DNA of 29,219 nucleotides from a virus. Below, one piece after another: positions 7,914 through 28,208 of this stretch. The first letter of the stretch is position 1. Each line of letters begins with the position of its first letter. Under the pieces are notes generated by a model. That model searched no databases. It saw only the letters and a program-made list of their open reading frames with translations, and was not told where the DNA came from. The stretch lies in IMG/VR virus record IMGVR_UViG_3300025286_000095, positions 1-29,219 of that record; one strand, 5' to 3'. The translations under genes were made by a program, and so were the position numbers.

Positions 7914-10900
7914 ATGCCTCAACAGGGTGCTCGAAAATGGACTGTTAATTATAATGGTTATCAGTTCCAAGTAAATAGTCCTACAGAGCCGACAGAACAA
8001 CAAGCCAAATGGTTGTATGATGATTATGTAGAAGGAGCAGGCGACTTTACAAAAGATTCTACAAATTGGTTAATGCCTGCATTGTTACCTGAAGACACTA
8101 CACAGAGTCTTGATTTTGGTTATATAGAAACTGATTTAGAACGAGCTCAAAGAAACTCTAGAGAGATTGGTTCTGTAATACCAGACCAAGAATATAGAGA
8201 TGCTACTTTTATGGGTAGATTTTGGGATAGCGCTGCATCATCTGCTATTCCATTCGGTAGGTATGAATCTACCTTATCCCCCGCCGATGAATCTTCTGAA
8301 CTATGGGCATCAGCCCTTGGTGGATTAGTTGGTGCGTTACCATCGTTTATAGTAGCCTCAGCTGTTACGGGAGGTGTAGGTGGTATAGGTACTTCAGTTG
8401 CTAGAGGTGGTAAGGTTATACAACAGTATATAAAATTTAAAAAAGCTCAGGATTTGTCTTTAAAAGCTGCTAAACTTGGAAGAACAAAACAAGCAAAAAG
8501 ATTTAAAAATATTGCTAAAAAAATAGTAGATAGAAATTCAGGTATATTCGCTAAAGCTATAGTCGCTAAGGAAATACCTGTAACTACAGGATTGCTTGGT
8601 GCAAGTAAATTATACACAAATAAAATATTAAAGATAGCTCAAAAGAATCCTAAGTTAGCTCGTTCACTTAATTTATTCTCTAATAACGTAATAGCATTTA
8701 ATTTATATGGTCAGACACGTTTTCCACTTAGTCAAATAGAAGGCCGATTAGAGTCCCTTACAGCCGATACAGCTGCGGGTCTTGTATTCTCTGTCGCTGG
8801 TATACCCACAATGATAGGAGCAAGTTTTAGGGGGGCTACGACTGTTGTAGAGCCTCTGATGTTGTTGGGTGCTGGTATGTATTCTGATTTAATGCAATCT
8901 GATATGTCAATGGAAGAAAGATTTATCCATGGTTTAACATTGGCTGGTTTCCATTACGCAAGACAGGGGCTAAGTAGAGCCCATATAAAAGAGAAACTTG
9001 AAACAGCTATTCGTACATCAATACCTGGCGTGGATGACATTGGTATAAAAAATATTGTTGAAGGTAAGGGTGTTAAAAAACAACTTGATGCTATAGAAAG
9101 TTATTTATCAGATAATGCAAGTAAAATGCATTTTTCATCCCGCAAAACGCCAGGAAAGAATGCCCGTATTGTTCGCGTTAGACAGACTGGTAAGGGTAAA
9201 AAGCCTAAGCATGAGTTAATGTATGAAGATATTGAAACTGGCGTAGTAAAAAGAATATCAGGGAAAACACGGGAAGAAGTTTTATTTAAGTTTGGTGAAA
9301 AATACGAAGTAAACGCTCCAAATCTTAAAGGTGAGCGTGTTATTGGTAGAGATTTAGATAAAGCAGATAAGAAAGCCTTAAAAGATTTAGAATTAACTGA
9401 GGAGCAATTTAGAGAAGCTTATCAGTCTAATCGTAGAGAATATAAGATTGAAGATAGGTCATTTAAGGGAGAGAGAGCCCCAGATGTTAAAAGCCCATTT
9501 AAAGAAGTAAAGGGACAAAAAGAAAGAGAGTATCTTGAATCTAAAATTGATTCATTTGAATCAGAATTATTACAATTAGCAGCTAAAAGAGTAGAAGATA
9601 TAAATAATGCAAAGAGCGATAGAGCGAGAAGTTCAATCAATAGTTTATATAAAGGAAAAGTTAGAGTATTAGATAGCTCTTTAAAAACATTAAGAAAAAA
9701 ATTAAATGAAGCAATCAATGAAGTAAGGACTGAAGATGTTGAGTTTTTACAGGGCGAAGAAATCTTTACAGGACGGACAATATCAAGGTCAAAGGGTGAG
9801 GTGCCTGAGAATTGGAAAATAGGAGATTATGTAAAGATTCCACTTTGGAATGAAAATACTAAATCATTTGAATATACATCTGCTGGTATTGGTAAATATG
9901 TTGGAAAAATATCTGACTTTAAAAAAGGTAGTGTTATTGTTCCAGAATCATTAAAAGCTGAATTTGTTGGTGAGAATTATCCTGTATTTGAAGTTCGTAC
10001 TCATGGAGGTTCTCAAGTACAAAAAATAGCTATTGGAACTAAAATACCAGAAAAAGTAATAAATAAAATCCAAGAAGCTAAAAGCTCTGATAAACCAAAA
10101 AGAACAGCTAAGACTAAAGAAGCTCAAGAAATAATTAACAATCCCATTGTTACTATTGGTGAGGATGGAAAACCTGTTTATAATACAAAAAGTCCATTAT
10201 TTACAAAGTTGTTTACCGATAAACTGTCTGGTAAAGATGCTGCTGAACGAGGAGAGCAAGCTATAGAAGTCGATATGGCTCGGTCTTGGATGGTTGAGAA
10301 AGGTAAGAAAGCATCGTTATCAGATAGATTAGCTGATTCCACTAGGAGAATACGTGACCCTGAAAATGCACTTAAAACTATAACAGAACCTAGACCAAAA
10401 TATCCAACAAAAGTTTATCCACGTTCTTCATCTGGATTAAAAAATCTTTCCAAGTCATTGGAAGAAGGGCTTACTCCTGGAAGGGCTAAAAGCTTTGAGG
10501 AATCTGTAATAGCAAAAACAGTTGAAAAAGGAACTGCAGAGAGAGAAAAAGCTCTTGAAGATTGGGAAAGATTGAAAAATATTGATGAGTCAGACCCAAA
10601 TAATTGGTACAATATGAATCAAATGAAAAAAGAAACATTGATTGATAGAAAAGCTTATGAATCATATCCTGAGTTTGACCCGTTAAATCAAAAGCCTATA
10701 TCACTTAAATTTTATTATGATAAGGTTACTAAGGGAGAAACTAAATCAGTTGAATTTAAAGACAATACGATAGAAGGCAAACCTATGCGATTTAAAAATC
10801 GTAAAGAAGCTACAGAATGGGCTGAAACCCATTGGGTACAAAATGAAGCTATCGAATCTAGGATACAACAAATTGCTGATAAAGTAGGCAATATTAAGCA

Positions 10901-13900
10901 GGGAGACTCATATAAAAAGTTTCGTAAAGAACAAATTAAATTAAAGAGAGCTCAAAACGATTCAAACATATCAGATTCCGAGTATCGACAATTATTAAAA
11001 TTGTTCTTTCCTAAGAGCGAAGGTACTTCAACAAAGATGACCTATGAAGAAGTTGTCGCTGCAAATGCTTTGATAGAGACTAAAACAAACACACCATCAT
11101 TTGAAAAGAAAATATCATCTACTGTTCCCCCAGACAATTTCATGAGTAAAGTTGATGTAAAGTGGAGAAAGTTTTTACTCGGAGCAGCAAAATTAACATT
11201 ACCAATATATACTGTACTTGGCATGGCTAAGAGTAAGGCCGCTCAAATACTTGCTGGTAAACAAATTGACTTTGAGTTGATGAGACAATCAATATCGGGT
11301 GAAGTTGCAGAGTGGAAACGAGGTTTAAGAAAAAAGTATAAGCTCAATCAAAAACAATTTGAAGCTCTATCAACAATACTCGATGGTAAATATGAAGATT
11401 TTTATAATCCAATATTAGATAAATTACCTAAACAAGAAATAATCAATGATTATAGAATATTTAGCGATGGTCTTGCTTTATCAATGATTGAAGTTAAGAT
11501 GGATGTTAAGAATGGTAGAAATGATGGTAAACGTGAAAAATTATTTGAGACTTATGATAAGGATGGAACTTTAATACAACTAGATGTTCCTTGGGATGCT
11601 TTTCGTGTTACAAGAGGATATGAATTTCTTGACTCAGGTTTGAATTCAAAAATGCCATCTGGCTTGAGTAAGGTAGTAAAGAAAAAAATTACGCAGGATA
11701 ATATAGAATACTATAAATCATTACGTGTAAAAAATGAAACAACTGGTGAGTATGACAATGGTTGGTTTATTATTGGTAAGGAAAGATTTGTTCCTGAGTG
11801 GAAGGGTGATAAGTTTCAAAGAGTGCGTAGAATAGGTTCTAAGGAAGTTGATGTAGCTGATGGTCGTAAAAATGTAAAAATGTATAAAGATTCGACATCT
11901 AAGAAAGCTGGATTCAAAAGTAATTTACAAGAAAACTATTTGATGCGTATGGTTACTGATGAATTTAGAGATTTAATTGGGTCTAGCTCTAACGGTAGAT
12001 TTGTAGAAGATATGGCTCTGAGGATATCAAAAACAGACCCAGAATTTTCTAAAATGGAAGGAAATTCCTACGAAAGATATGAAGCCGCTCTTGCTCATGT
12101 AAAGCAAATACGTAAATATTGGATGGATAGTGCTGGTGTATTCGGTACTCAATGGTCACGTATTGCAGAATTGCCACCAGTATTATTAATGGAAATTGGA
12201 ACAAGAAAATTAATAGATGTACCTAATTTTAAAGATATAAATGGGAAACCTGTTAAAAAAGGTTCTACTGTTATTGATAAGGATGGTAATAAAAGAAAAA
12301 TTGGTAAAGTTATAGACGTATATGAAAGAAATTTCGATAAGATTGTAACTAGATACGGTCAAAAAATAGCTCATATTGTACCTACATATAAATTTTTCGG
12401 TAAGGATGGGGCTAACACAAAGGGTGAAACTTCTAAATTATTCGCTAGATTAACTTTAGAAACTGGAGAGGATTTCTCAAGATGGGCTCATAGTCAATTA
12501 GAGCTTCAGGTTAATTCTACTTCAAAGAACAATCCAATGGAAAAGACTTTAAATGGATTAACAATGATTACAGCTCAGTTGGGATTGTCAAGTCCATTCT
12601 CAGGTGCAAAGAACTTCATACTTGGACAAACAAGTAATGCAACTGTATATGGTATTCGTGGAGCTTTAAGGGGAATGTACGAAACTATGTCTGATGTGGG
12701 ATTTTACAACACCCTGACAGGTGTACTTGGTGGTAAAGAAGCTGGTGTTCATGAATTGGTGTCAGGACGTATACGTTATACAAAGTATAGTCCAGGTTTA
12801 ATGAGACAAACTGAAGTTGTAAACCGTATTATATCTGTTGCAGCTGCAAAACCGATGCTTGTAACACATATTAATAATTTAAATGGTGTTAAAACACCTA
12901 TGAACAAGGGCATGAGTGAAAAGACATCAATGCGTATCTTAACAGATGTTTTTAAATTTACTACCGCTGAAGTAAAGGAGATGATGAAACTTGGAGCAGA
13001 GAGACTTCATGAAAAGCCTAATCATATACAAAGAGCACAACAAATGTCTCATTTGATTACTCAAGGCGGGCCCAGTTTGCCTTTTGTACCCAAGTGGATG
13101 GGTCAATGGTGGTCTAAGCCAATGACATTATTCTATAGAATTGCTTACAGAATGACCGATAATGTTTATACTCATGTTATTAAACCTGCAATAGTAGATG
13201 GTAATCCTGTCCCGTTGTTAAGATATGCTACTATAGTACCAATAGCGGGTCAAGCTATCTATTCTATGTACTACGCAGTACTTGGAGAAGAGACTCGTAA
13301 TAAATTTAAAACAATGTCACAGCAATATTGGATGTCTTTTATAAGAGCTGAGGGTTTAGCTGCTTTTAGTAACTCAGTAGATGAATATGGAAGTGCTCTT
13401 GATTCTTATAGACCTGTAGTGTTAAGAACTGTAGAGTCAATATTCAGAGAAACGTCAGCTACCATAACAGGAAAGAAAAAGATTGGACAATCCCTTGAAG
13501 ATTTAGCAAAAGAAAATGTTGTATTTTTAAATCACGCTACAAGATTTGTCCGTAAATTTACAGCACCAACAGAGAAGAAGGTTGAAGCGTCAAGACGTAG
13601 ACAAAGACAATTTACAGATACTTACTTTAGAGGTAAGCCGACATTTGGTGATGAACTTGATTTTCTTACAACAAGAAGTCCTTACTACCGTACCGTTAAA
13701 GATTCGTTCTGGTCTGAAGACGCTAAGGTAAAAGCACAGGCTTATTATTCAGCTTTAAATTATGTTATCCATCATGAGATACAAAAAGACCCCGCTTTAA
13801 TTAAAGTACCTCATAAAGCAAGAAAAATGGCTAAGAGTATTTTAAAAAGTATTATAAGCCGTTCAAGACCAATACCTAGCAGTTGGAGAAAGAAGACTAC

Positions 13901-14075
13901 TGGTAAAAAGACTCGATATCAGATATATTATAGCAAATTAAAACCTGAGTTTCAGCAAGAAGAATTAGAACTCGATAAACTTTATAAACAAAAAGTTAGA
14001 GAATTTAATTCAGCAATTAATCAATATAGAAATATATATGGCATGGATGCTGTATATGCTCCAACGGAGAATTAA
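7914..14075 (+). CDS. Giant putative DNA-ejection protein, 2053 residues
   Basis: This is the largest gene in the window. The N-terminus (GYQFQVNSPTEPTEQQA, about residues 15-31) resembles the short leader module of large phage internal proteins. Hydrophobic Gly/Ala segments lie at about 132-165 and 285-330, with another at about 1771-1792 (IVPIAGQAIYSMYYAVLG). A charged coiled-coil region spans about 500-610. A beta-rich patch follows (about 620-720), then helical blocks from about 1120, and a region around 1540-1620 (GLSSPFSGAKNFILGQTSN) recalls large phage polyvalent proteins. I saw no convincing lytic transglycosylase triad or N4-type RNA polymerase motif. Size and position fit the gp16-like core protein that helps move DNA into the host. 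Confidence 0.78.
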   Translation: MPQQGARKWTVNYNGYQFQVNSPTEPTEQQAKWLYDDYVEGAGDFTKDSTNWLMPALLPEDTTQSLDFGYIETDLERAQRNSREIGSVIPDQEYRDATFMGRFWDSAASSAIPFGRYESTLSPADESSELWASALGGLVGALPSFIVASAVTGGVGGIGTSVARGGKVIQQYIKFKKAQDLSLKAAKLGRTKQAKRFKNIAKKIVDRNSGIFAKAIVAKEIPVTTGLLGASKLYTNKILKIAQKNPKLARSLNLFSNNVIAFNLYGQTRFPLSQIEGRLESLTADTAAGLVFSVAGIPTMIGASFRGATTVVEPLMLLGAGMYSDLMQSDMSMEERFIHGLTLAGFHYARQGLSRAHIKEKLETAIRTSIPGVDDIGIKNIVEGKGVKKQLDAIESYLSDNASKMHFSSRKTPGKNARIVRVRQTGKGKKPKHELMYEDIETGVVKRISGKTREEVLFKFGEKYEVNAPNLKGERVIGRDLDKADKKALKDLELTEEQFREAYQSNRREYKIEDRSFKGERAPDVKSPFKEVKGQKEREYLESKIDSFESELLQLAAKRVEDINNAKSDRARSSINSLYKGKVRVLDSSLKTLRKKLNEAINEVRTEDVEFLQGEEIFTGRTISRSKGEVPENWKIGDYVKIPLWNENTKSFEYTSAGIGKYVGKISDFKKGSVIVPESLKAEFVGENYPVFEVRTHGGSQVQKIAIGTKIPEKVINKIQEAKSSDKPKRTAKTKEAQEIINNPIVTIGEDGKPVYNTKSPLFTKLFTDKLSGKDAAERGEQAIEVDMARSWMVEKGKKASLSDRLADSTRRIRDPENALKTITEPRPKYPTKVYPRSSSGLKNLSKSLEEGLTPGRAKSFEESVIAKTVEKGTAEREKALEDWERLKNIDESDPNNWYNMNQMKKETLIDRKAYESYPEFDPLNQKPISLKFYYDKVTKGETKSVEFKDNTIEGKPMRFKNRKEATEWAETHWVQNEAIESRIQQIADKVGNIKQGDSYKKFRKEQIKLKRAQNDSNISDSEYRQLLKLFFPKSEGTSTKMTYEEVVAANALIETKTNTPSFEKKISSTVPPDNFMSKVDVKWRKFLLGAAKLTLPIYTVLGMAKSKAAQILAGKQIDFELMRQSISGEVAEWKRGLRKKYKLNQKQFEALSTILDGKYEDFYNPILDKLPKQEIINDYRIFSDGLALSMIEVKMDVKNGRNDGKREKLFETYDKDGTLIQLDVPWDAFRVTRGYEFLDSGLNSKMPSGLSKVVKKKITQDNIEYYKSLRVKNETTGEYDNGWFIIGKERFVPEWKGDKFQRVRRIGSKEVDVADGRKNVKMYKDSTSKKAGFKSNLQENYLMRMVTDEFRDLIGSSSNGRFVEDMALRISKTDPEFSKMEGNSYERYEAALAHVKQIRKYWMDSAGVFGTQWSRIAELPPVLLMEIGTRKLIDVPNFKDINGKPVKKGSTVIDKDGNKRKIGKVIDVYERNFDKIVTRYGQKIAHIVPTYKFFGKDGANTKGETSKLFARLTLETGEDFSRWAHSQLELQVNSTSKNNPMEKTLNGLTMITAQLGLSSPFSGAKNFILGQTSNATVYGIRGALRGMYETMSDVGFYNTLTGVLGGKEAGVHELVSGRIRYTKYSPGLMRQTEVVNRIISVAAAKPMLVTHINNLNGVKTPMNKGMSEKTSMRILTDVFKFTTAEVKEMMKLGAERLHEKPNHIQRAQQMSHLITQGGPSLPFVPKWMGQWWSKPMTLFYRIAYRMTDNVYTHVIKPAIVDGNPVPLLRYATIVPIAGQAIYSMYYAVLGEETRNKFKTMSQQYWMSFIRAEGLAAFSNSVDEYGSALDSYRPVVLRTVESIFRETSATITGKKKIGQSLEDLAKENVVFLNHATRFVRKFTAPTEKKVEASRRRQRQFTDTYFRGKPTFGDELDFLTTRSPYYRTVKDSFWSEDAKVKAQAYYSALNYVIHHEIQKDPALIKVPHKARKMAKSILKSIISRSRPIPSSWRKKTTGKKTRYQIYYSKLKPEFQQEELELDKLYKQKVREFNSAINQYRNIYGMDAVYAPTEN

Positions 14076-16685: not shown

Positions 16686-16852
16686 TACTCCTTATTCATT
16701 AAATCCCAATCTGGCTCGGGAATTTCAAGTTCTGCTCCACAATCTTCACAGGTGTAAGATTCGGGAACGTTAGTGTCATATTCTTCAGGCTGATAATGTC
16801 TATTTCTGTGTTTACAATTAATATCATCACCAGCTACTATTACTGCAATCAT
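16685..16852 (-). CDS. Small Cys/His zinc-binding protein
   Basis: This 55-residue protein is bounded by an ATGA overlap with the methyltransferase stop and a TAATG overlap with the next start. It has CKH at residues 13-15 and CEDC at 35-38, which can supply three or four ligands for one zinc. The C-terminal half is acidic (ELEIPEPDWDL). It is too short to be caught by common length cut-offs, but the coupling at both ends supports it. Function is unknown. It lies beside another zinc-ribbon gene, so the two may be related or act together. Confidence 0.72.
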   Translation of the reverse strand: MIAVIVAGDDINCKHRNRHYQPEEYDTNVPESYTCEDCGAELEIPEPDWDLMNKE

Positions 16853-17796
16853 TTGAATAGCTCCTGTTGTTGAAATCTCTCCTCAGCAATCTTTATGTAA
16901 TCAGGGTTAAGCTCAATACCTAACCAATTACGTCCAAGTCTTTGAGCAACCCAACCAGTAGTTCCACTACCAAAGAATGGGTCTAGTACAATGTCTCCTT
17001 CTTTAGAGCCTGCTTTTATACATAACTCAGGCAGTTTCTCAGGAAATGTAGCAAAGTGAGCTCCCCTAAATGGTCTAACAGGAATTGTCCACACGCTTCT
17101 CATGTTAGCTCCGTCCTTCATTTCAAAGTATCCCTGCTCTGACTTTTGCATTTTGCTCTTCATACCAAATTCTGAATTGCCCTTTTTACCACCGAACTGT
17201 GAACCTGGCTTGGTATTCTCTTTATATGGTTGTTTAATAGCGTTTGAATCAAAGTAATAATGTTTTGACTTCGATAATAAAAATATGTATTCATGAGCCT
17301 TTGTACATCTGTCTGTAACAGACTCAGGCATTGGATTGGGTTTGCTCCATATGATATCCTGTCTTAAATACCATCCATCAGCTTGTAGTCCAAAAGCTGA
17401 ACGCCACGGTATACCAACCATATCTTTCGCCTTGAATAGACTGTGTGTGCCCTTACCCATTGATATAGCATCTCCACAATGACTTCCTGGGTGTCCTTTT
17501 TGCACATCTCCACTATGCTTATTAAGTTCTACTCCTCTCCATCCGCCACCCCAATATGTATCGCCGAGGTTTAACCAAAACGTACCATCATCACGTAGCA
17601 CACGTTTAAGTTCCTGTCCAATCTCCACCAATCGCTCTACATAACCCTCAGGCGTAGGTTCAAGACCAAACTGTCCATCTTCTCCATAGTCTCTGAGGGC
17701 CCAGTATGGCGGACTTGTACAGACCATCTGAACATAGTCATCAGGTATATCTTTTAATCTGGCGAGTACATCGCCCTGTAGTATTTCATTTATCAT
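16849..17796 (-). CDS. DNA methyltransferase (N6-adenine/N4-cytosine type)
   Basis: This 315-residue enzyme transfers a methyl group from S-adenosylmethionine to a base in DNA. The catalytic motif IV is TSPPYW at residues 27-32, and the SAM-binding motif I is DPFFGSGTTG at 272-281, an order typical of the beta class. SPPY is more usual for N4-cytosine enzymes but also occurs in adenine enzymes, so the base is undecided. The middle region (about 90-230) should hold target recognition. No restriction gene lies next to it, so it is probably a solitary phage methylase that protects the genome from host enzymes. A structured leader lies directly upstream, and the usual GGAG site is absent. Confidence 0.92.
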   Translation of the reverse strand: MINEILQGDVLARLKDIPDDYVQMVCTSPPYWALRDYGEDGQFGLEPTPEGYVERLVEIGQELKRVLRDDGTFWLNLGDTYWGGGWRGVELNKHSGDVQKGHPGSHCGDAISMGKGTHSLFKAKDMVGIPWRSAFGLQADGWYLRQDIIWSKPNPMPESVTDRCTKAHEYIFLLSKSKHYYFDSNAIKQPYKENTKPGSQFGGKKGNSEFGMKSKMQKSEQGYFEMKDGANMRSVWTIPVRPFRGAHFATFPEKLPELCIKAGSKEGDIVLDPFFGSGTTGWVAQRLGRNWLGIELNPDYIKIAEERFQQQELFK

Positions 17797-19215: not shown

Positions 19216-19427
19216 GTATCACACTCCTCACACTTAGCTTGTTGAACTGTTGAGCTAGTCTCTTCATATGGTTCCTCTATAGACTCCATATCAGCTATAA
19301 TAGTTTTCAATCGAGCTGCGTCAGCAGCTATGTTACCAATCTTCATTGAATCAATAGTTTTCATTGCAATCTTTAGACAGCTTCTAATCAAGATTGAATC
19401 TGATTCATCATAAACAATTTTAGCCAT
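19212..19427 (-). CDS. Small hypothetical protein with C-terminal CXXC
   Basis: This 71-residue protein has a helical body (SCLKIAMKTIDSM, then ARLKTIIADMESI), an acidic linker and the end AKCEECDT with one CXXC. It overlaps the helicase stop by 8 bases and the next start by ATGA, so it is read as part of the replication operon. I recognise no domain. The CXXC might bind metal with a partner or in a dimer. Confidence 0.62.
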   Translation of the reverse strand: MAKIVYDESDSILIRSCLKIAMKTIDSMKIGNIAADAARLKTIIADMESIEEPYEETSSTVQQAKCEECDT

Positions 19428-20730
19428 TAAATACCTCCGTTAAAGCTTCTTCTGGCGTAGAATAAATCTTACATCGGTCACCAGCTACACCCATCTTTAC
19501 CCTGCCGCTTTTGCCGTATCTATTTTTACCAAGTATTATTTCAATCCCATATTCACCCATATCAGATTCTTGCACGTAGTATCGCCACTCATAATACATA
19601 AACAATATGATTTCAGCATCCTGTTCAATAGAACCACTATCACGTAAATCTCTAAGCAATGGTCTTTTGTTTGCTCTTGTTTCACATTCACGATTTAGCT
19701 GTGAAACCAACAAGACAGCCATTTTATGCTTCTTGGCAGACCATTTATATTGTTTCATAATGTTATCAACACGCATCCTGTTGTCATCTACGCCAGCAAC
19801 GCTCACCAACCCTATGTAATCATCGACAACAACATCAGGTGTATGTTTGCGAATTTCACGCATTGAACCTTCTATATCAAATATTTTATCGTTCATTATT
19901 AAATTTTTATAATTCTTTCTAATGTTCTGTTTTGATTTTTCGAGCATATCATTATCATTATCGTTAAGTGTACCAATACGAATTTTCTCATACGACAGAT
20001 GCTCTGATTCAAGTATTATAAGCTTTTTCATCATTTCAATGTTACTCATCTCACGATTCATAACTAATACTTTATATCCGCTATGTATAATATTTCTCAC
20101 AATATTTAACATGGTTGTTGATTTAAAATGACCAGGCCTACCAGCAATAACAGTAATCTCGCCTCTTGTCATACCACCAGTTAATTCATCAAGCTCTGGA
20201 TATCCAAACCCAATTAATGCATTTTTGTCAAATATATTTTTAAATGTTTCTTCAAGAAGTTTATCTATATCGAACCCATCGCCAACCTGCATATCAAGGA
20301 CATCCTCAATCTCATGCTGTAATTGTTCGAGTACTTCACGAGCATCAGAATTTTTTACATTTAAAACATTCTTAACCTGCTCAGCTTTTAATATAACATT
20401 CCTAAGTAGCCATTTTTCATGTAAAATCTTAGCATTATTCTCAGAGTTAGCAGTTGTAGCGATTTCACATAATCCTGTTATTTTCCAACCCATATCACTG
20501 GTAGCGTATGATGGCGGTATCTCAGCAATAAGCGTATTGACTGTAATATCATCGGTTCCATTCTTGCGTAAACCCATAATACCCCTCCACACGCTTCTAT
20601 TAAATTCATTATAGAATATTGTATCTGATGGTATGTACTGTATTACTTTATCGATTAAACTATTATCTAGTATTATCTGACCAAGCAACTCCTTTTCAAC
20701 TTCGTATGAATTAGGTAATGTCTGTGCCAT
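19420..20730 (-). CDS. DnaB-type replicative DNA helicase
   Basis: This 436-residue protein is expected to form a hexamer that unwinds DNA at the phage fork. The N-terminal domain opens like DnaB (NSYEVEKELLGQIILDNSLI, residues 7-26). The RecA-type ATPase has Walker A GRPGHFKS at 197-204, Walker B VVVDDYIGL at 300-308, SQLNRECETR at 343-352 and SGSIEQDAE at 365-373. The closing KNRYGKSGRV supplies the arginine-finger region. His and Phe in the Walker A loop are unusual for DnaB but keep GxxGxxKS. The ATG at 20730 is chosen because it overlaps the preceding stop as TAATG and gives a normal DnaB N-terminus. The in-frame ATG at 20772 would lie inside the previous gene. Confidence 0.93.
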   Translation of the reverse strand: MAQTLPNSYEVEKELLGQIILDNSLIDKVIQYIPSDTIFYNEFNRSVWRGIMGLRKNGTDDITVNTLIAEIPPSYATSDMGWKITGLCEIATTANSENNAKILHEKWLLRNVILKAEQVKNVLNVKNSDAREVLEQLQHEIEDVLDMQVGDGFDIDKLLEETFKNIFDKNALIGFGYPELDELTGGMTRGEITVIAGRPGHFKSTTMLNIVRNIIHSGYKVLVMNREMSNIEMMKKLIILESEHLSYEKIRIGTLNDNDNDMLEKSKQNIRKNYKNLIMNDKIFDIEGSMREIRKHTPDVVVDDYIGLVSVAGVDDNRMRVDNIMKQYKWSAKKHKMAVLLVSQLNRECETRANKRPLLRDLRDSGSIEQDAEIILFMYYEWRYYVQESDMGEYGIEIILGKNRYGKSGRVKMGVAGDRCKIYSTPEEALTEVFNG

Positions 20731-20930
20731 TATTCTTGAGTCTTCAAATAGTACGTTGTGTTTCGATTCCATAAAAACCCTCTATTTTTTGTTTCGATTG
20801 TATATCCATGATTCTTAGCTCTTTTTATTGCACCCCTAACATCGTGAATGCCCAACATATGTATATCTAAATCTGTTGCGAATTCGCTGTATTTAAGGAA
20901 GTGCACGAGCCTATGAGTGTCCCTGTCCAT
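20730..20930 (-). CDS. Small winged-helix DNA-binding protein
   Basis: This 66-residue protein has FATDLDIHMLGIHDVRGAIK followed by KNHGYTIETKNRG and TTYYLKTQE. The pattern is a helix-turn-helix, a recognition helix, and then a two-strand wing ending in a Tyr-Leu strand, as in many small phage winged-helix proteins. It directly precedes the helicase and is coupled to it, so it may help bring the helicase to the origin or control the operon. It overlaps the preceding gene by 20 bases. The specific role is inferred from position. Confidence 0.7.
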   Translation of the reverse strand: MDRDTHRLVHFLKYSEFATDLDIHMLGIHDVRGAIKRAKNHGYTIETKNRGFLWNRNTTYYLKTQE

Positions 20931-21450
20931 CTATAGACTCATTTCTGACTCTTACGAGATTAGCGACTGGGCTTATTGCTCTACCGTTCTGGCCTTCCCA
21001 TTCATCGTGATATATGCTAATGACTACGGATTTATCCATTATCAAGTCCTTTGTAATAGCGGGAAGCTTAATTATAACTCTCGGCTCCTCGCCAGTGTTC
21101 CTGTCTATTTCAATTTTTTGAAGCGGAATGTGGATTTTATCAAGAAATCTCTTATAACCAGTATTGCTACCACCAGTTATTCTTCTGCCTTCACTATCCT
21201 TTACTCCAAGAAATCTCCATATGCCAGAATCTTGAATGTCCCTTCCACCGTAATTTTTTACGTTTTCATCAAGTTTGTACGTAGGTTTGTAGAGCATAGC
21301 GTCGTTTCCTCTGCGTGTTCTTATCTTTTTACTGTACAGACCTACTATTTTAGCTGGGTATGTACCTTCCGGCACAATCGTTGACATTTGCTGGTCATAG
21401 TATACCTCCTCATCGTCAAAGTTGTCTAATAAATCATCTACAGTAGTCAT
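20911..21450 (-). CDS. Putative ssDNA-binding protein, OB-fold type
   Basis: This 179-residue protein starts with an acidic stretch (DDLLDNFDDEEVYYD). A domain opening VPEGTYPAKIVGLYSKKIRT follows, then GIWRFLGVKDSEGRR and VVISIYHDEWEGQNG. Such a PEGTY start after an acidic region, then a beta-rich body, is common in phage ssDNA-binding (DUF669-like) proteins that lie beside annealing recombinases. The gene is coupled by ATGA to the ERF/Rad52-like gene, which supports a recombination/replication role. The fold is inferred and should be tested by structure prediction. Confidence 0.68.
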   Translation of the reverse strand: MTTVDDLLDNFDDEEVYYDQQMSTIVPEGTYPAKIVGLYSKKIRTRRGNDAMLYKPTYKLDENVKNYGGRDIQDSGIWRFLGVKDSEGRRITGGSNTGYKRFLDKIHIPLQKIEIDRNTGEEPRVIIKLPAITKDLIMDKSVVISIYHDEWEGQNGRAISPVANLVRVRNESIDGQGHS

Positions 21451-21926
21451 ACCCAGCCATCCTTAGTGTCTGCGGTATCACCACCAATCTTCTTACCATT
21501 GGCATCAACATATTTATTATCATCAAATCTACCCATAAATACATCAGCATTAAACCCAAGCTTTGAAAGTCCCTTAGTCAATGCATCTGTGGCAACCTTT
21601 TTAATACAGTCATCGTCAACACGGCTTCCCATTATAACTTTAATTGAGCTGCTTATTGGGAATGCTCCTTCAATACCATCCCACTTATAAAAGAATGTTG
21701 CCGTATACACAATAAGTGTATCATTTAGTATTGGTGTGTATAATTCATTCTTTACGCCAAATCCCAACCCAAACGGGCCAAACAGAGATGTTGCGTTTTT
21801 AAGTTGATACTGGGCCCCAATAGCAGTAAATCCTCCGCGCTTGTTAACCTTTGTTGTGAACTCTGGGTCTGTAGTATCAACGCTCTCCCACAGTCCTAAG
21901 TTTGTACTATCTTCTTTTTTTTGCAT
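21447..21926 (-). CDS. Single-strand annealing protein, ERF/Rad52-like
   Basis: This 159-residue protein has GLWESVDTTDPEFTTKV at its start, then RGGFTAIGAQYQLKNATSLF, FGPFGLGFGV, DDDCIKKVATDALTKGLSKL and GFNADVFMGRFDDNKYVD. The late ATDALTKGLSKLGF segment and the GxGFGV strand are typical of phage annealing proteins of the ERF/Rad52 type, which pair complementary single strands during recombination and genome concatemer formation. The start has AAGGA 8 bases upstream. It is the first gene of the ERF, ssDNA-binding, winged-helix and helicase run, and it lies 43 bases after a structured RNA element. Confidence 0.88.
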   Translation of the reverse strand: MQKKEDSTNLGLWESVDTTDPEFTTKVNKRGGFTAIGAQYQLKNATSLFGPFGLGFGVKNELYTPILNDTLIVYTATFFYKWDGIEGAFPISSSIKVIMGSRVDDDCIKKVATDALTKGLSKLGFNADVFMGRFDDNKYVDANGKKIGGDTADTKDGWV

Positions 21927-22770: not shown

Positions 22771-23523
22771 TCATTTATTCGCCTGTGTTTTACCAACTAA
22801 ACCACCGCCACAGGCTTCAAAGTATGAGCAGTATTTAGCGTTACACTCCCAGCTCAGCACTGGGGCAAACCCAAGTTTAATCGGTGGAGCCCCATTTTTT
22901 ACAGCTTCGTTGATTTTTTGCCAATAATCTACAGCTTCGTCTATCATTCTCATTGGAATGTCTAATTCTTGCATTTGTGAGTCATTTTTGTTATAAAACA
23001 ACAATGCCATTGATTTTATTTTTGGGTAATCGTGTTGAAAGTAAACATTATACCAATGAGCGTATGTAGCTGTTTGCATCATATAGTTTTTTACTGAATC
23101 TGGGTCATAATATTTGCTTTTTCTAAATATTGTTCGCCATTTCCAATAATTACATGATTTTATATCATAAAGCACGCCATCATCTACCATAACTAAGTCG
23201 ATGAAGCCACGAACATTTAAATCGTGCAAGAATAATTCTTTTTCTATAAAGATTCGGTTTCCATTTGTTGAAGCATACCATTGTATCGCGTCTTGTATAT
23301 CTGAATGTATTATGTCTCCAAGGCGGAATAGCCTTAGGGTTCCTGCGTCTCTTAGAGCAGGCTTTATTTTTTCGATTGATGAAAAGTAATGTTTTCGCGC
23401 ACACAAACCAGCCGATGAAGAATGAAACCATTCTTCTTTTCCGTCATATCTTTTAAACTTGGTATCGTTTAGGTGTGCAACGTAATCATTATAGATTTGT
23501 GTGACTTTTGATTCTTTGGCCAT
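22771..23523 (-). CDS. Cas4/RecB-like Fe-S nuclease
   Basis: This 250-residue protein carries the PD-(D/E)XK exonuclease pattern of the Cas4/AddB group: His73 in GDIIHSDIQ, Asp109 in GFIDLVMVDDG, Asp120-Ile-Lys122 in YDIKS, and QTATYAHWY at 150-158. Four Cys suit an Fe-S cluster: Cys41 (SSAGLCARKHYF), then Cys227, Cys232 and Cys238 (CNAKYCSYFEAC). Such enzymes trim DNA ends. With the ERF-like annealing protein encoded downstream, it could supply single strands for recombination. There is no CRISPR array or cas1/cas2 nearby, so a CRISPR role is not supported. It overlaps the preceding gene by 35 bases. Confidence 0.88.
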   Translation of the reverse strand: MAKESKVTQIYNDYVAHLNDTKFKRYDGKEEWFHSSSAGLCARKHYFSSIEKIKPALRDAGTLRLFRLGDIIHSDIQDAIQWYASTNGNRIFIEKELFLHDLNVRGFIDLVMVDDGVLYDIKSCNYWKWRTIFRKSKYYDPDSVKNYMMQTATYAHWYNVYFQHDYPKIKSMALLFYNKNDSQMQELDIPMRMIDEAVDYWQKINEAVKNGAPPIKLGFAPVLSWECNAKYCSYFEACGGGLVGKTQANK

Positions 23524-23866: not shown

Positions 23867-24481
23867 CTAACAGATACGAAATCCGCCTGAGTGTTCACAA
23901 AACTCAGCGAATTCTAATATGCTTTCAACGTCAAATGGATAGCTTCGGTCAAAGTTCTTAACTTTACCAACACCATGACAGGAATTACAGCCTTTCATCT
24001 CGTTAGCCCGCTTAAAACCACCAAGGCTATCTTCTTCTTTTAGACTATCGTGGTACATTAACCATAGCTCTTCTGATTGCCAACCTTCCCATTCTTTTCT
24101 TGTGCCAGTACCGTTGCATATTTTGCACTCCTCGTCTGGCAAAGAATCCATCTCCGTTGCGTAGGTTCGAGCATAGTTAACTAAATCACCGCTTTTATGC
24201 AGAGAATTTATTCTATTTGATATTAACTTAGCTTTTTCTTTTGTTATCTTATGGCCGTCGTTATAAGAACCTGATTGAGCATCTTTTACTGATATTATAT
24301 CATCACAATTTTCCATGACATATTGCCAAATAGGACGCCAACCCCAGACACTTTCTCTGAAGTATGCTCCTTTTGTATTGTTTTGCCATGCAAAATATGC
24401 TTGTATCGTTTTTTCATCAGAAAAATCGCAATCAGGCACTTGTTCATTTGACGGGCTAAGACCATGTAGGTCGAATCCCAT
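23867..24481 (-). CDS. DnaJ-type zinc-finger phage protein (MGFDLHG family)
   Basis: This 204-residue protein starts MGFDLHGLSP and contains YFRESVWGWRPIWQYV (about residues 40-55). This N-terminus recurs in many phages as a conserved protein of unknown function. Two DnaJ-like zinc modules follow, CKICNGTG at 119-126 and CNSCHGVG at 165-172, which together can bind one zinc. The end is FAEFCEHSGGFRIC. The start has AAAGGAG upstream. The zinc modules suggest protein or nucleic-acid binding, but no J-domain is present, so a chaperone role is not shown. The large CCTAGG hairpin lies just downstream. Confidence 0.75.
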   Translation of the reverse strand: MGFDLHGLSPSNEQVPDCDFSDEKTIQAYFAWQNNTKGAYFRESVWGWRPIWQYVMENCDDIISVKDAQSGSYNDGHKITKEKAKLISNRINSLHKSGDLVNYARTYATEMDSLPDEECKICNGTGTRKEWEGWQSEELWLMYHDSLKEEDSLGGFKRANEMKGCNSCHGVGKVKNFDRSYPFDVESILEFAEFCEHSGGFRIC

Positions 24482-24496
24482 TATAAGCTCCTTTCG

Positions 24497-25012
24497 TTAT
24501 GATTTAGCGTTTAAATGACTATCTATATGTATATCTAAATCCGCATCATCTGAATCATCTGACTCAAAAGTTTTTGAATGGCCAGGTTTCTCCGAAGATA
24601 CACCATACGAAGCAGTGCAAAACCTATCAAATTCCTTCATTCTTTGATTGGATTTTAATGCTCTTTTAAGCTTCCTTAGAACTTTGCCTATGAACTCTTT
24701 ATGTGGCTTGTCCTCCTCTTCGTTCATCACTTCGTGTACTCCTGTTGCAACTAACTCTGTCATTAGCGTTACAATCGTAGCGTGTATCGACGATTCAATT
24801 ATACTATCACCGGTAAGCATTTCACTTAGACCGATGCGTTCGGATAAATAATGTTTTGTTACTACATAAAACATCTGTGGATTATCAGTAACTCTAAAAA
24901 ATTCTGATAAATCAGAGCTTAGGGCGTCGCACAGCTTTTTATTTTTCCTTACGTTAGTATAATCACCAGCTGGTATTTGAATCGCTACTGCTATAGCTTT
25001 TTGTTTATTCAT
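24497..25012 (-). CDS. Hypothetical protein encoded behind the vWA gene
   Basis: This 171-residue protein has AAGGTGA before its ATG and follows the vWA gene by only 4 bases. The N-terminal two thirds is helical, with IQIPAGDYTNVRKNKKLCDA at the start and KVLRKLKRALKSNQRMKEF near residue 115. The C-terminus is acidic and Ser-rich (FESDDSDDADLDIHIDSH) and is likely disordered. No motif is recognised. Its tight link to the MoxR and vWA genes makes it a candidate third component or substrate of that pair. Confidence 0.65.
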   Translation of the reverse strand: MNKQKAIAVAIQIPAGDYTNVRKNKKLCDALSSDLSEFFRVTDNPQMFYVVTKHYLSERIGLSEMLTGDSIIESSIHATIVTLMTELVATGVHEVMNEEEDKPHKEFIGKVLRKLKRALKSNQRMKEFDRFCTASYGVSSEKPGHSKTFESDDSDDADLDIHIDSHLNAKS

Positions 25013-25016
25013 TTGT

Positions 25017-26027
25017 TCACCTTATGGTTTTTGTTATTGAAATTAAATCTTTTCGCGTCCGACATCCGTACGCAGTTCCACCAAAGTCCGGTTGCTGTTT
25101 TTTAATATAATCAATGAACCGATAACTAGTTCTGTAAGTATAATCTTTGTTAAACCAGTGAATTTCATTTGTTTGCGATGCTTTTGAAATAATATCTTCG
25201 CCGTCCCAGTCACCAAAATACAATATGACGCGATTCTTAAAAAAATTGTGTAACTCGTCCATCCCGCAAATAATAAAGCTTGAATCCTTACTTAAATCAA
25301 AAATAGGCTCATATTCGTAACTCTTGCTGTTCATTTTGTGGGTTACATATGCATTTGGAGCTAAATAAATGTCTAAACAGCCTATTTTTACCGATAATAG
25401 AGCTATTTTAGCGTATAATTCTGACGTTGACTGACAGCTTGGAGAGCTATCGAGAACCAATACAATATTTTCACGCTCTCTTGACTGCATACAACTGTAT
25501 ATATTACGTTTTGTTATGCTTCTCATCATCAATTCTTGTAAATCCCACTCATCTTCGCCAATAATAACATCACCGCTTCTTTCCTCTGCTAATTTTGACA
25601 CCATAATTGCCAATGTATTCGCAAGTCTTTTATCTTTTGATTCCTTTGCGATAGCAAATACGCTCTTAGTTCTCTTGTCGTTCTTGTCGTACTTGCAATT
25701 CTTATCAAAATGTTGCGACCATTGTATATTATTGTCGTAATTGTCAAGAGCTTGTTCAATTCTATGCTTTGGAAAATCCTTCGATTTTAGGTCTAAATTA
25801 TTTTTATTGAACTTCACCCCGCATTTATTATTTTGTAGTCTTTTAGGGTGTGTTTTGGACGTTCTAATAGTATTTATAGGTGGCGATGGTATGTTTATTG
25901 TGATTCTTGGTTTGAGCTTCGGACTTTTAAGAGCAGACATCTTGCCGTAGTTTGATAATTTTTCGCTATAAGACGATGTGGCTGGCGGTTGCCAGTTTCT
26001 CCAATCCCTTTTTATAAGCTTAGACAT
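25017..26027 (-). CDS. vWA-domain protein, partner of the MoxR-type ATPase
   Basis: This 336-residue protein has a basic, Pro-rich N-terminal third (for example KLKPRITINIPSPPINTI). A vWA domain then opens at about residue 187 with IVLVLDSSPSCQSTSELYAK. The MIDAS metal site DxSxS is present as Asp193, Ser195 and Ser197. VILYFGDWDGED, near the end, supplies acidic residues of the same face. vWA proteins next to MoxR-type ATPases (NorD, CbbO, ViaA) act as substrate adaptors in metal or complex remodelling. The start overlaps the ATPase stop by 8 bases, so the two are coupled. The phage substrate is unknown. Confidence 0.85.
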   Translation of the reverse strand: MSKLIKRDWRNWQPPATSSYSEKLSNYGKMSALKSPKLKPRITINIPSPPINTIRTSKTHPKRLQNNKCGVKFNKNNLDLKSKDFPKHRIEQALDNYDNNIQWSQHFDKNCKYDKNDKRTKSVFAIAKESKDKRLANTLAIMVSKLAEERSGDVIIGEDEWDLQELMMRSITKRNIYSCMQSRERENIVLVLDSSPSCQSTSELYAKIALLSVKIGCLDIYLAPNAYVTHKMNSKSYEYEPIFDLSKDSSFIICGMDELHNFFKNRVILYFGDWDGEDIISKASQTNEIHWFNKDYTYRTSYRFIDYIKKQQPDFGGTAYGCRTRKDLISITKTIR

Positions 26028-28062
26028 TTGTACTTGCTGATTTAGCTAACTGATTAACAACTCTACGCATTTGTGAAAACCTTCGTACTACGTCCATGTC
26101 ATGGTTATAGCTAAACCCAAAGACTGCGAAATCGTCAAACAGATAGCAAGCTCCATACGCATCGAGCCCCATGTATACTTTCCTCATTAAACCACTGCGA
26201 CTCCCAAACGGATTCCATCCATGACGCTTTAAATGTTTTGATAATTTAGATGTATTAACGCTTACGGATTTGTAGATTGGTATTTCATCGCGCCTGTATC
26301 CCATCAATATTCCGAGCCTACATATACTATCTAAAGCCGTTTCTTTAGGCGTTCCGTCAATCTTAACTCTAATAACTTTAGTTTGGTTAAATTCAGTATT
26401 CTGCAGTTTTATCTCGAACCCCCTGCCTTTATACACAACCGCATCAGATTCAACGATTACCTCATCTGAATTTGATGGTATGCCACCAAATCCTCGAGGC
26501 AACTCACCTCTGTATTTAATTTTATTAGAGTATTGTATACAGTCGTGCTCTACCAGCTTACGTAAATTCAATATACCATTATCGCAATTATTTCTATCAA
26601 TAATTAGTCTAGCAGAACTATCGTCTGTGTTAAATTCAGTAATGTTTACAAACTTACCAGAGTTTCCATCTCCCGCAGAAGTAAAAAAGTCTGGGATTGT
26701 AAATGAGTCATTAGATGTTGCAATTAATGTAATACCGCTATCAGGTGTCCATCTTAAATCAATAGTTACAGGGTTATCGCGAGAATCTTTAATGGCCCTA
26801 GCTACTACTTCATTTTTTGAGTATCTGCGTATAATAAACGCCTGCCACTCGGGGATTCTTAGCAAATCCTTTAATTTACAGTTTTTATCAACATAGCATA
26901 CCTCATGAACCATCTTTTTACCCGATGAATACTGATTGTATTGCATATCGGTCATCTGGTATGGTTTTTTGCGTATCATTTTATCATGTATAACTTCAAA
27001 ATCGTTAACATTCGACGAATCTTCGCTTGTAGTCTCCCCCTGCATATTCTTATGTGCCATCATTGAATAATTCTCATCATTATAATCATATACGCCATAA
27101 ACTTCATTCTCGTTTGGAATCGGCTTGTCGTTGTCTATGGATTCAGAGAGAGTTAAATATGCTGTCTTTTTTGGCATCAATACATTAGATTTTACATCAG
27201 ATTCCTCAGAAAACTCACCTTCAAAGGCAATCTCCTTCAATTTAGCAATATTTTTGATAGATTCATATCTAGCATTCTCTGCTTCTTTTAATAATCGGTG
27301 GTTCTCAGGTGTTTTTGTAACATACTGATAAACTAAGCTATTCCAATCAGCTCCATCACCAAGAAAACTAATAGCATCAAGAAGTTGCCGTATTTCCTGT
27401 ATTGTAGCGGGTTTTGACATACCGCTCATCACAGCTCTTTCGTACAACTTGATTACATTACTTAAATGTGGATGAGCATCATGGGTCAATCTTAGAGCAG
27501 ACATCACAAGACTAGGAGCCATCGGGTCTACATCTATTTTAGGAAACCTACGTAATAATGCTTCATGAAAATCACGCTCATCATTCGCAGTAAAAAATAT
27601 GTACATATTATCAAGATTTGCATTGATATCGGAACCAGGAATAGATAAACGCCCGTACTGAAGGAAGTCTAAAAAGAATCCATCAGCGGTTGGTCGTGTT
27701 TTATCCCATTCATCGAGCACTAGCATCACTTGTTTGTGGTGCGACGCTTCTGCAGCTCTAAAAACTGTTGACTTTTTAATTTCTATGCCACTTTTAGTTT
27801 TTTCACTTGGAAGCATTTTAAGCACTAAGTCATCTTCGCGAGTCCCTGGAGCGCATTGATAGAAAAACATTTCTATACCGAGCATCTTGCTAAGAACTAT
27901 TGGAAGGTAACTTTTTCCTGTACCCGCTGGGCCATATAAAAACGCTCCACTAACCGGCTTGGTTTGCATTGCGCTTGTAATACGAGCAGCGAAGGGTACA
28001 TCGCAGATATATCCATTTGTATTAAGAGACTTGTGTATGCCCTTAACAGTTAGTTCTTGCAT
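26020..28062 (-). CDS. MoxR-type AAA+ ATPase with long C-terminal extension
   Basis: This 680-residue protein starts at MQELTVKGIHKSLN (ATG at 28062, overlapping the upstream TGA). The AAA+ core has Walker A GPAGTGKS at 44-51, Walker B LVLDEWD at 114-120, sensor FFTAND at 156-161 and an arginine finger in ALLRRFP near 171. The insert EDDLVLKML and the compact ring domain place it with MoxR/dynein-related ATPases. Residues about 280-680 form an extension with no family I recognise, including IPEWQAFIIRRYSKNE and FGGIPSNSDEVIVES, whereas MoxR proteins usually have about 300-350 residues. With the vWA gene it probably forms a chaperone-like machine. A TTG at 28065 could add one Met. Confidence 0.88.
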   Translation of the reverse strand: MQELTVKGIHKSLNTNGYICDVPFAARITSAMQTKPVSGAFLYGPAGTGKSYLPIVLSKMLGIEMFFYQCAPGTREDDLVLKMLPSEKTKSGIEIKKSTVFRAAEASHHKQVMLVLDEWDKTRPTADGFFLDFLQYGRLSIPGSDINANLDNMYIFFTANDERDFHEALLRRFPKIDVDPMAPSLVMSALRLTHDAHPHLSNVIKLYERAVMSGMSKPATIQEIRQLLDAISFLGDGADWNSLVYQYVTKTPENHRLLKEAENARYESIKNIAKLKEIAFEGEFSEESDVKSNVLMPKKTAYLTLSESIDNDKPIPNENEVYGVYDYNDENYSMMAHKNMQGETTSEDSSNVNDFEVIHDKMIRKKPYQMTDMQYNQYSSGKKMVHEVCYVDKNCKLKDLLRIPEWQAFIIRRYSKNEVVARAIKDSRDNPVTIDLRWTPDSGITLIATSNDSFTIPDFFTSAGDGNSGKFVNITEFNTDDSSARLIIDRNNCDNGILNLRKLVEHDCIQYSNKIKYRGELPRGFGGIPSNSDEVIVESDAVVYKGRGFEIKLQNTEFNQTKVIRVKIDGTPKETALDSICRLGILMGYRRDEIPIYKSVSVNTSKLSKHLKRHGWNPFGSRSGLMRKVYMGLDAYGACYLFDDFAVFGFSYNHDMDVVRRFSQMRRVVNQLAKSASTNV

Positions 28063-28208
28063 CAATGTAGCCTTAACTTTAGCATTTTAATTTGTTTGTT
28101 CAATTTGCCTACTGTACTCTGCAATCCACGTATAAGTTTATGCAATACACTAATGTATATTGATAATCCAATGACAGCGATTACAGCTATTATAGTTATT
28201 TGTAACAT
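28062..28208 (-). CDS. 48-residue single-pass membrane peptide before the MoxR gene
   Basis: The frame from ATG 28208 to TGA 28062 shares its last base with the ATPase ATG (TGATG), so translation is coupled. The peptide has one hydrophobic segment (about residues 2-23, LQITIIAVIAVIGLSIYISV) followed by a basic helical end (KLIRGLQSTVGKLNKQIKML) with Leu spacing typical of a coiled coil. It may place the MoxR-vWA machine at the membrane. The ribosome site is weak (AAAGAATT). It is too short for usual cut-offs but fills the gap exactly. Confidence 0.6.
   Translation of the reverse strand: MLQITIIAVIAVIGLSIYISVLHKLIRGLQSTVGKLNKQIKMLKLRLH

Follow-up and report, generated by a model that had tools for sequence, protein, structure and literature searches.

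A MoxR-like AAA+ ATPase, a vWA-like partner and a variable third protein are encoded as a constant unit within the replication block of a lineage of uncultured tailed viruses represented here by IMG/VR virus record IMGVR_UViG_3300025286_000095 (hereafter "the window", i.e., the whole record of 29,219 bases). Our preferred reading, with a probability of roughly 0.6, is that the ATPase and its partner form a NorQD/Midasin-like protein-remodelling machine serving the replication/recombination programme of the virus. The pairing of an AAA+ protein with a vWA protein is itself already known: what is new is a very divergent family, with a small partner lacking a CobT signature and an arm attached to the ATPase.

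Gene layout and linkage to the replication block

On the minus strand, positions 28208 to 24497 of the window encode a 48-aa membrane peptide, a 680-aa AAA+ ATPase, a 336-aa vWA-like protein and a 171-aa protein. These genes and their neighbors are as follows:

28062..28208, minus strand: single-pass membrane peptide, 48 aa (hydropathy peak 2.7)
26020..28062, minus strand: AAA+ ATPase, 680 aa (Pfam AAA_5, invariant motifs, AF2 model); motor at residues 1-265, fast-evolving arm at residues 266-680 (window 26020-27269)
25017..26027, minus strand: vWA-like partner, 336 aa (AF2 model, 15-sequence alignment)
24497..25012, minus strand: third gene, 171 aa, no family, starting just after the vWA gene
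23867..24481, minus strand: gene with DnaJ-type CxxCxGxG pairs, 204 aa (Pfam DnaJ_CXXCXGXG below cut-off; synteny)
22771..23523, minus strand: PD-(D/E)XK Cas4-like exonuclease, used as block marker (Pfam PDDEXK_1, PHROG Cas4/CRISPR-associated nuclease)
21447..21926, minus strand: recombination-type gene (PHROG 7838, E 1e-32, PHROG label "exonuclease"), presumably Erf-like and labelled erf
20911..21450, minus strand: gene labelled ssb (no PHROG or Pfam match; syntenic in relatives), its single-strand-binding role being assumed from position
19420..20772, minus strand: DnaB-like replicative helicase, used as lineage marker (PHROG 19, E 2e-71)

The first three frames overlap at these positions, as originally predicted: the peptide stop and the ATPase start share one base (TGATG), and the vWA gene starts inside the ATPase gene, with an overlap of 8 bases. 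The most likely ATPase start is the ATG at 28062, the listed TTG at 28065 lying one codon upstream. Since gene order and overlap are kept in relatives at 42–60% protein identity, and since dN/dS is far below 1, we consider the peptide, ATPase and vWA frames to be real genes. Promoter and terminator scans remained near chance level.

Eight scans of viral contigs, using the ATPase, the vWA protein, the nuclease and DnaB as queries, identified 21 further IMG/VR contigs carrying the ATPase, three of which end inside its gene. The vWA gene adjoins the ATPase gene in all 19 contigs that run past the latter (window included), and where the overlap between the two was measured it amounted to 8 nt in close relatives and 14–32 nt in divergent ones. 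In 17 of 17 loci, a further gene begins no more than about 25 nt from the end of the vWA gene. Its product varies in sequence and in length (122 to 310 aa), but its last residue is always A or S, preceded by a polar one (AKS, AES, GQS, GEA, YEA, AEA, ADA), a pattern noticed after the fact in loci including the window, L005, L036-L038, L042, L050 and L052-L054. In the window this product has an acidic tail ending in -NAKS. The tail is possibly a recognition tail, a lead only, and the third-gene product is a candidate substrate or adaptor. Of the four genes, ATPase, vWA gene and third gene are constant, and the 48-aa peptide is found in only part of the lineage.

Nine contigs with this DnaB could be evaluated, and each of them carried the pair. 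Contigs sharing the nuclease only (L028-L034, L040 and L043) had neither the pair nor DnaB, although no judgement is possible for L029 and L032, whose sequence starts at the nuclease. This second group shares the nuclease at 33–50% identity, so that the nuclease also travels separately. Beyond this lineage, neither the ATPase nor the vWA protein had a match among 50,697 phage records, another search yielding only weak matches that were ClpA-type where named; the ATPase had no match in 84,980 genomes, and the sole match in the DnaB scan of genomes was a protein of 30% identity in a Gastranaerophilales MAG.

The surroundings show some variation of their own. The 204-aa DnaJ-type gene is a conserved neighbor whose zinc part is lost in L054 and which is also shorter in L053. 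In divergent relatives, the third gene and the nuclease are separated by a gene whose ParB-like "DGQHR" motif was recognized by eye (L038:8028-8816, L042:7866-8642, L050:5930-6718 and L054:5523-6380); this gene is absent from the window, and the L038 copy had no Pfam match. The replication strand of the window ends with an N6/N4 DNA methyltransferase (16849-17796; Pfam N6_N4_Mtase, 190 bits), without an evident restriction partner, and a 2053-aa protein encoded on the virion strand (window 7914-14075) had no Pfam or PHROG match.

This genomic context bears on whether the pair could instead be a virion-assembly chaperone, folding or maturing a phage structural protein in the manner of p618-p892 of Acidianus two-tailed virus. 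Such a role has a published precedent and has been proposed for jumbo phages (PMC7824862, PMC7911831), and these viruses encode very large virion-strand proteins, such as the 2053-aa product. However, both in the window, whose virion-type genes occupy the plus strand, and in L002/L003, the pair lies with the Cas4-type nuclease, recombination and DnaB genes on the strand opposite to the structural genes. Across contigs, it is also the replication block that the pair tracks, so that we regard a chaperone of virion assembly as unlikely.

A near-frozen motor with a fast-evolving arm

The ATPase scored 45 bits with Pfam AAA_5 (cut-off 22), and all 16 of its relatives matched this family too; AAA_3 was not matched in Pfam. 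Profile comparison also related it to phage CobS-type ATPases (probability 94%, E 9e-8). ClpA-type sequences also match the ATPase, ClpA being its best direct sequence match, and neither NCBIfam nor Pfam returned a RavA or ViaA family match. Matches to MADS (MadB) and PADLOC models were rejected as generic AAA+ similarity, MadB falling far under its cut-off. The predicted Walker A (residues 44-51, GPAGTGKS), Walker B (117-118, DE), sensor 1 (N160) and arginine-finger (R171/R172) motifs are all present, together with sensor 2 (R225), and K50, D117, E118, N160, R171, R172 and R225 are invariant in the 16 relatives, down to 33% identity.

We also examined an AF2 model of the ATPase (mean pLDDT 54; residues 500-680 mostly 64–89). 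In VIA-align comparisons, whose rows cover mainly residues 14-186 and barely sample the arm, CbbQ ranked best (Z 10.5, rmsd 3.2, 127 aligned), with NorQ at Z 10.0 (rmsd 3.8, 138 aligned). RuvB, ClpA and FtsH followed within 1 Z of CbbQ, so that the AAA+ clade is not fixed by structure. In the model, a strand pair (138-141/144-147) precedes sensor 1, and helix 2 falls in a loop modelled with low confidence. Overall, the ATPase probably belongs to the MoxR-like side of AAA+, its exact clade not being fixed, and it is genetically tied to a vWA-like partner, both as had been proposed from the sequence.

The roughly 400 extra residues of the ATPase do lack a sequence family, as noted at the outset. 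Their modelled secondary structure runs beta-alpha-beta4-alpha twice, followed by a third, shorter copy. A Foldseek search of the ATPase model against the PDB returned TATA-binding proteins (E about 4e-4, probability 0.97–0.99), as did a search against viral models. The Foldseek output came without ranges; as a TBP match in the AAA+ part can be dismissed, we place it on the arm. Comparing the three predicted segments with hhalign revealed no internal sequence repeats, so the repeat idea comes from secondary structure and Foldseek only. The arm may thus hold TBP-like repeats, a weak resemblance that we treat as a lead rather than a result.

The two parts of the ATPase differ strongly in their rate of change. 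Identity of the motor (residues 1-265) to close relatives is mostly 76–92%, and 60–82% in the most divergent of them; identity of the arm to the same relatives is mostly 20–50%. Among the better-populated pairs, dN/dS was 0.02–0.10 for the motor, 0.2–0.7 for the arm and the vWA protein, and 0.04–0.09 for DnaB and the exonuclease (the motor value of 0.27 for L024/L025 rests on two changes, this pair being too close to weigh). Overall, the motor is nearly frozen and the arm and partner are fast-evolving, all under purifying selection (dN/dS < 1).

Rapid change in the arm and on the vWA surface would be expected of a host-directed takeover or counter-defence machine that follows changing host targets, and the dN/dS of arm and vWA protein is indeed several-fold above that of the neighboring DnaB and nuclease. 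Yet these ratios are still below 1 and faster change also fits relaxed constraint, the pair was never seen lost in the lineage, and no known defence or counter-defence family was matched beyond generic AAA+. We consider this explanation quite improbable: the pair behaves as a stable component of the replication genes rather than as variable cargo, and the counter-defence role raised in the original prediction found no support.

The vWA-like partner and known AAA+/vWA pairs

The partner consists of a variable, low-confidence N-terminus and a vWA-like domain at about residues 130-336 (AF2 model, mean pLDDT 53). VIA-align ranked the MDN1-MIDAS domain first (Z 7.6, rmsd 3.9, 162 aligned) and NorD second (Z 6.6, rmsd 4.1, 156 aligned). 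The vWA domains of integrin and Ro ranked lower, and unrelated phosphoribosyltransferases came in between; all Z scores are below 8. Across the 15 vWA-like sequences, D193, S195 and S197 of the DxSxS motif (D193-S-S195-P-S197) are invariant, as are D273 and D275, W9-R10 and P224-N225. D273 sits at the end of strand 267-271, in the position of the loop-3 Asp. In the same alignment, no loop-2 Thr is conserved in the stretch leading from the second strand to D273, so the "intact MIDAS" first described was too strong a claim, the DxSxS motif and loop-3 Asp being the parts that stand. From sequence and model, we describe the partner as vWA-like with a partial MIDAS; the model also contains a short, low-confidence hairpin at 230-241.

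Database comparisons barely recognize this protein. The window copy had no family match at a meaningful score, and only two of 15 relatives touched Pfam VWA_CoxE, the best (L038) with 23.4 bits against a cut-off of 26.4. Searching solved structures by sequence, with the protein alone or as a profile, returned nothing.

Pairs of AAA+ and vWA genes are nonetheless well documented in tailed phages, for which they had at first been considered non-standard. Published examples come from cyanophages, haloarchaeal tailed viruses, jumbo phages and Roseobacter phages (PMC8651126, PMC7824862, PMC7911831, PMC2147016, PMC11288001), and include CobST in tailed viruses of eight host orders (PMC8651126), a MoxR-vWA pair in group 2.2 jumbo phages with the vWA fused to a metallopeptidase (PMC7824862), a pair in Hardycor1 and its relatives (PMC7911831), a two-subunit MoxR-type chaperone in 0305phi8-36 (PMC2147016) and CobS/CobT in CRP-810-type phages (PMC11288001). 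We also found AAA_5 genes with vWA or CobT neighbors in Gordonia phage Chidiebere, coliphage Cyrano, Bacteroides phage BS162P1 and HVTV-1.

Known systems share some features with the window pair and differ in others. NorQ-NorD likewise joins a small MoxR-like AAA+ domain to a vWA partner encoded with it, and both proteins rank high structurally (NorQ among the top AAA+ neighbors, NorD second for the vWA model), but NorQ lacks the 400-aa C-terminal arm, and NorD combines a complete DxSxS-T-D MIDAS with a pore finger where the window partner has no conserved Thr and only a short predicted hairpin. The group 2.2 jumbo-phage genes are also a phage-encoded chaperone-cochaperone pair (PMC7824862), whereas no peptidase domain was matched in the window vWA protein. 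The p618-p892 pair, likened here by description, is a viral MoxR-vWA pair too and is implicated in tail development. Midasin (MDN1/Rea1), whose MIDAS is the top neighbor of the vWA model at a Z of only 7.6, is an AAA+-coupled vWA system as well, but a single giant eukaryotic protein needed for pre-60S ribosome maturation. The CobS-CobT pairs of phages and haloarchaeal viruses resemble the window pair in their neighboring genes, their AAA_5 motor and, in the phages inspected, their position beside replication genes; their vWA proteins are 600–740 aa long with vWA/CobT Pfam matches, whereas the window partner is half that size and unrecognized, and the window ATPase carries the arm instead.

This last likeness raises the possibility of a metal chelatase, i.e., a CobS-CobT cobaltochelatase cassette that would raise cobalamin synthesis, which is the usual annotation of phage AAA+-vWA pairs (PMC8651126, PMC11288001) and agrees with the distant profile relationship, given above, between the ATPase and phage CobS-type ATPases. 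The partner nevertheless speaks against it: none of the 15 vWA proteins contains a CobT or CobT_C domain, where a coliphage Cyrano protein used as positive control scored 276 bits, and profile comparison of the vWA family with phage CobT gave a probability of 0.3%. Together with the foreign 400-aa arm and the lack of a CobS family match for the ATPase in NCBIfam, this makes a chelatase very improbable.

Likewise very improbable, against the envelope-bound function suggested originally, is a membrane machine in which the 48-aa peptide would tether the ring of ATPases to the host envelope: the peptide has a clear transmembrane segment and a basic coiled tail and is coupled to the ATPase in eight contigs (window included; junctions TGATG-type or directly abutting), but it is missing from the close relatives L007, L008, L014 and L015/L048 as well as from L050 and L052-L054, and other divergent contigs have different, uncoupled membrane peptides 178–784 nt away, so that it is not a core part and a membrane role is not supported. 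A spanin identity for the peptide was likewise rejected (weak PHROG match, E 0.006; lysis-type genes on the other strand).

A putative remodelling machine of the replication programme

Cryo-EM of NorQD places a finger of the vWA protein in the pore of the AAA+ ring, with the NorD C-terminus touching the post-sensor-1 loop, and ATP turnover has been proposed to twist the NorD linker and thereby open the target (PMC13036017, PMC9976466). By analogy, the viral ATPase would assemble as an AAA+ ring, on which the vWA-like protein would dock as adaptor and lever, like NorD on NorQ. The DxSxS site may then grip a target protein by an acidic or terminal group, ATP hydrolysis would twist or pull this protein, and the arm, perhaps TBP-like in part, could add contacts to the target or to DNA. 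From the position of the genes in the block, the strand shared with DnaB and the constant presence of the pair, we infer that the target belongs to replication or recombination and not to the virion or the membrane. It is probably a phage-encoded complex of the early replication/recombination programme, with the third-gene product as a possible substrate or adaptor.

In a more specific version, which we hold to be doubtful, the MoxR-like ring with TBP-like repeats would target DNA or a DNA-bound complex and be fed the third protein through its short, conserved C-terminal tail. We know of no precedent for a MoxR-vWA design in DNA metabolism, and a DNA-targeting remodeller, if true, would mean that this design is used there.

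More broadly, AAA+-vWA pairs of viruses mostly carry a cobalamin annotation or go without an explanation. The traits of the present family, i.e., a 336-aa vWA protein without CobT signature, a nearly frozen motor, a fast-evolving arm and a strict linkage to the replication block, make the real viral role of such machines a question that can be asked through one defined three-gene unit.
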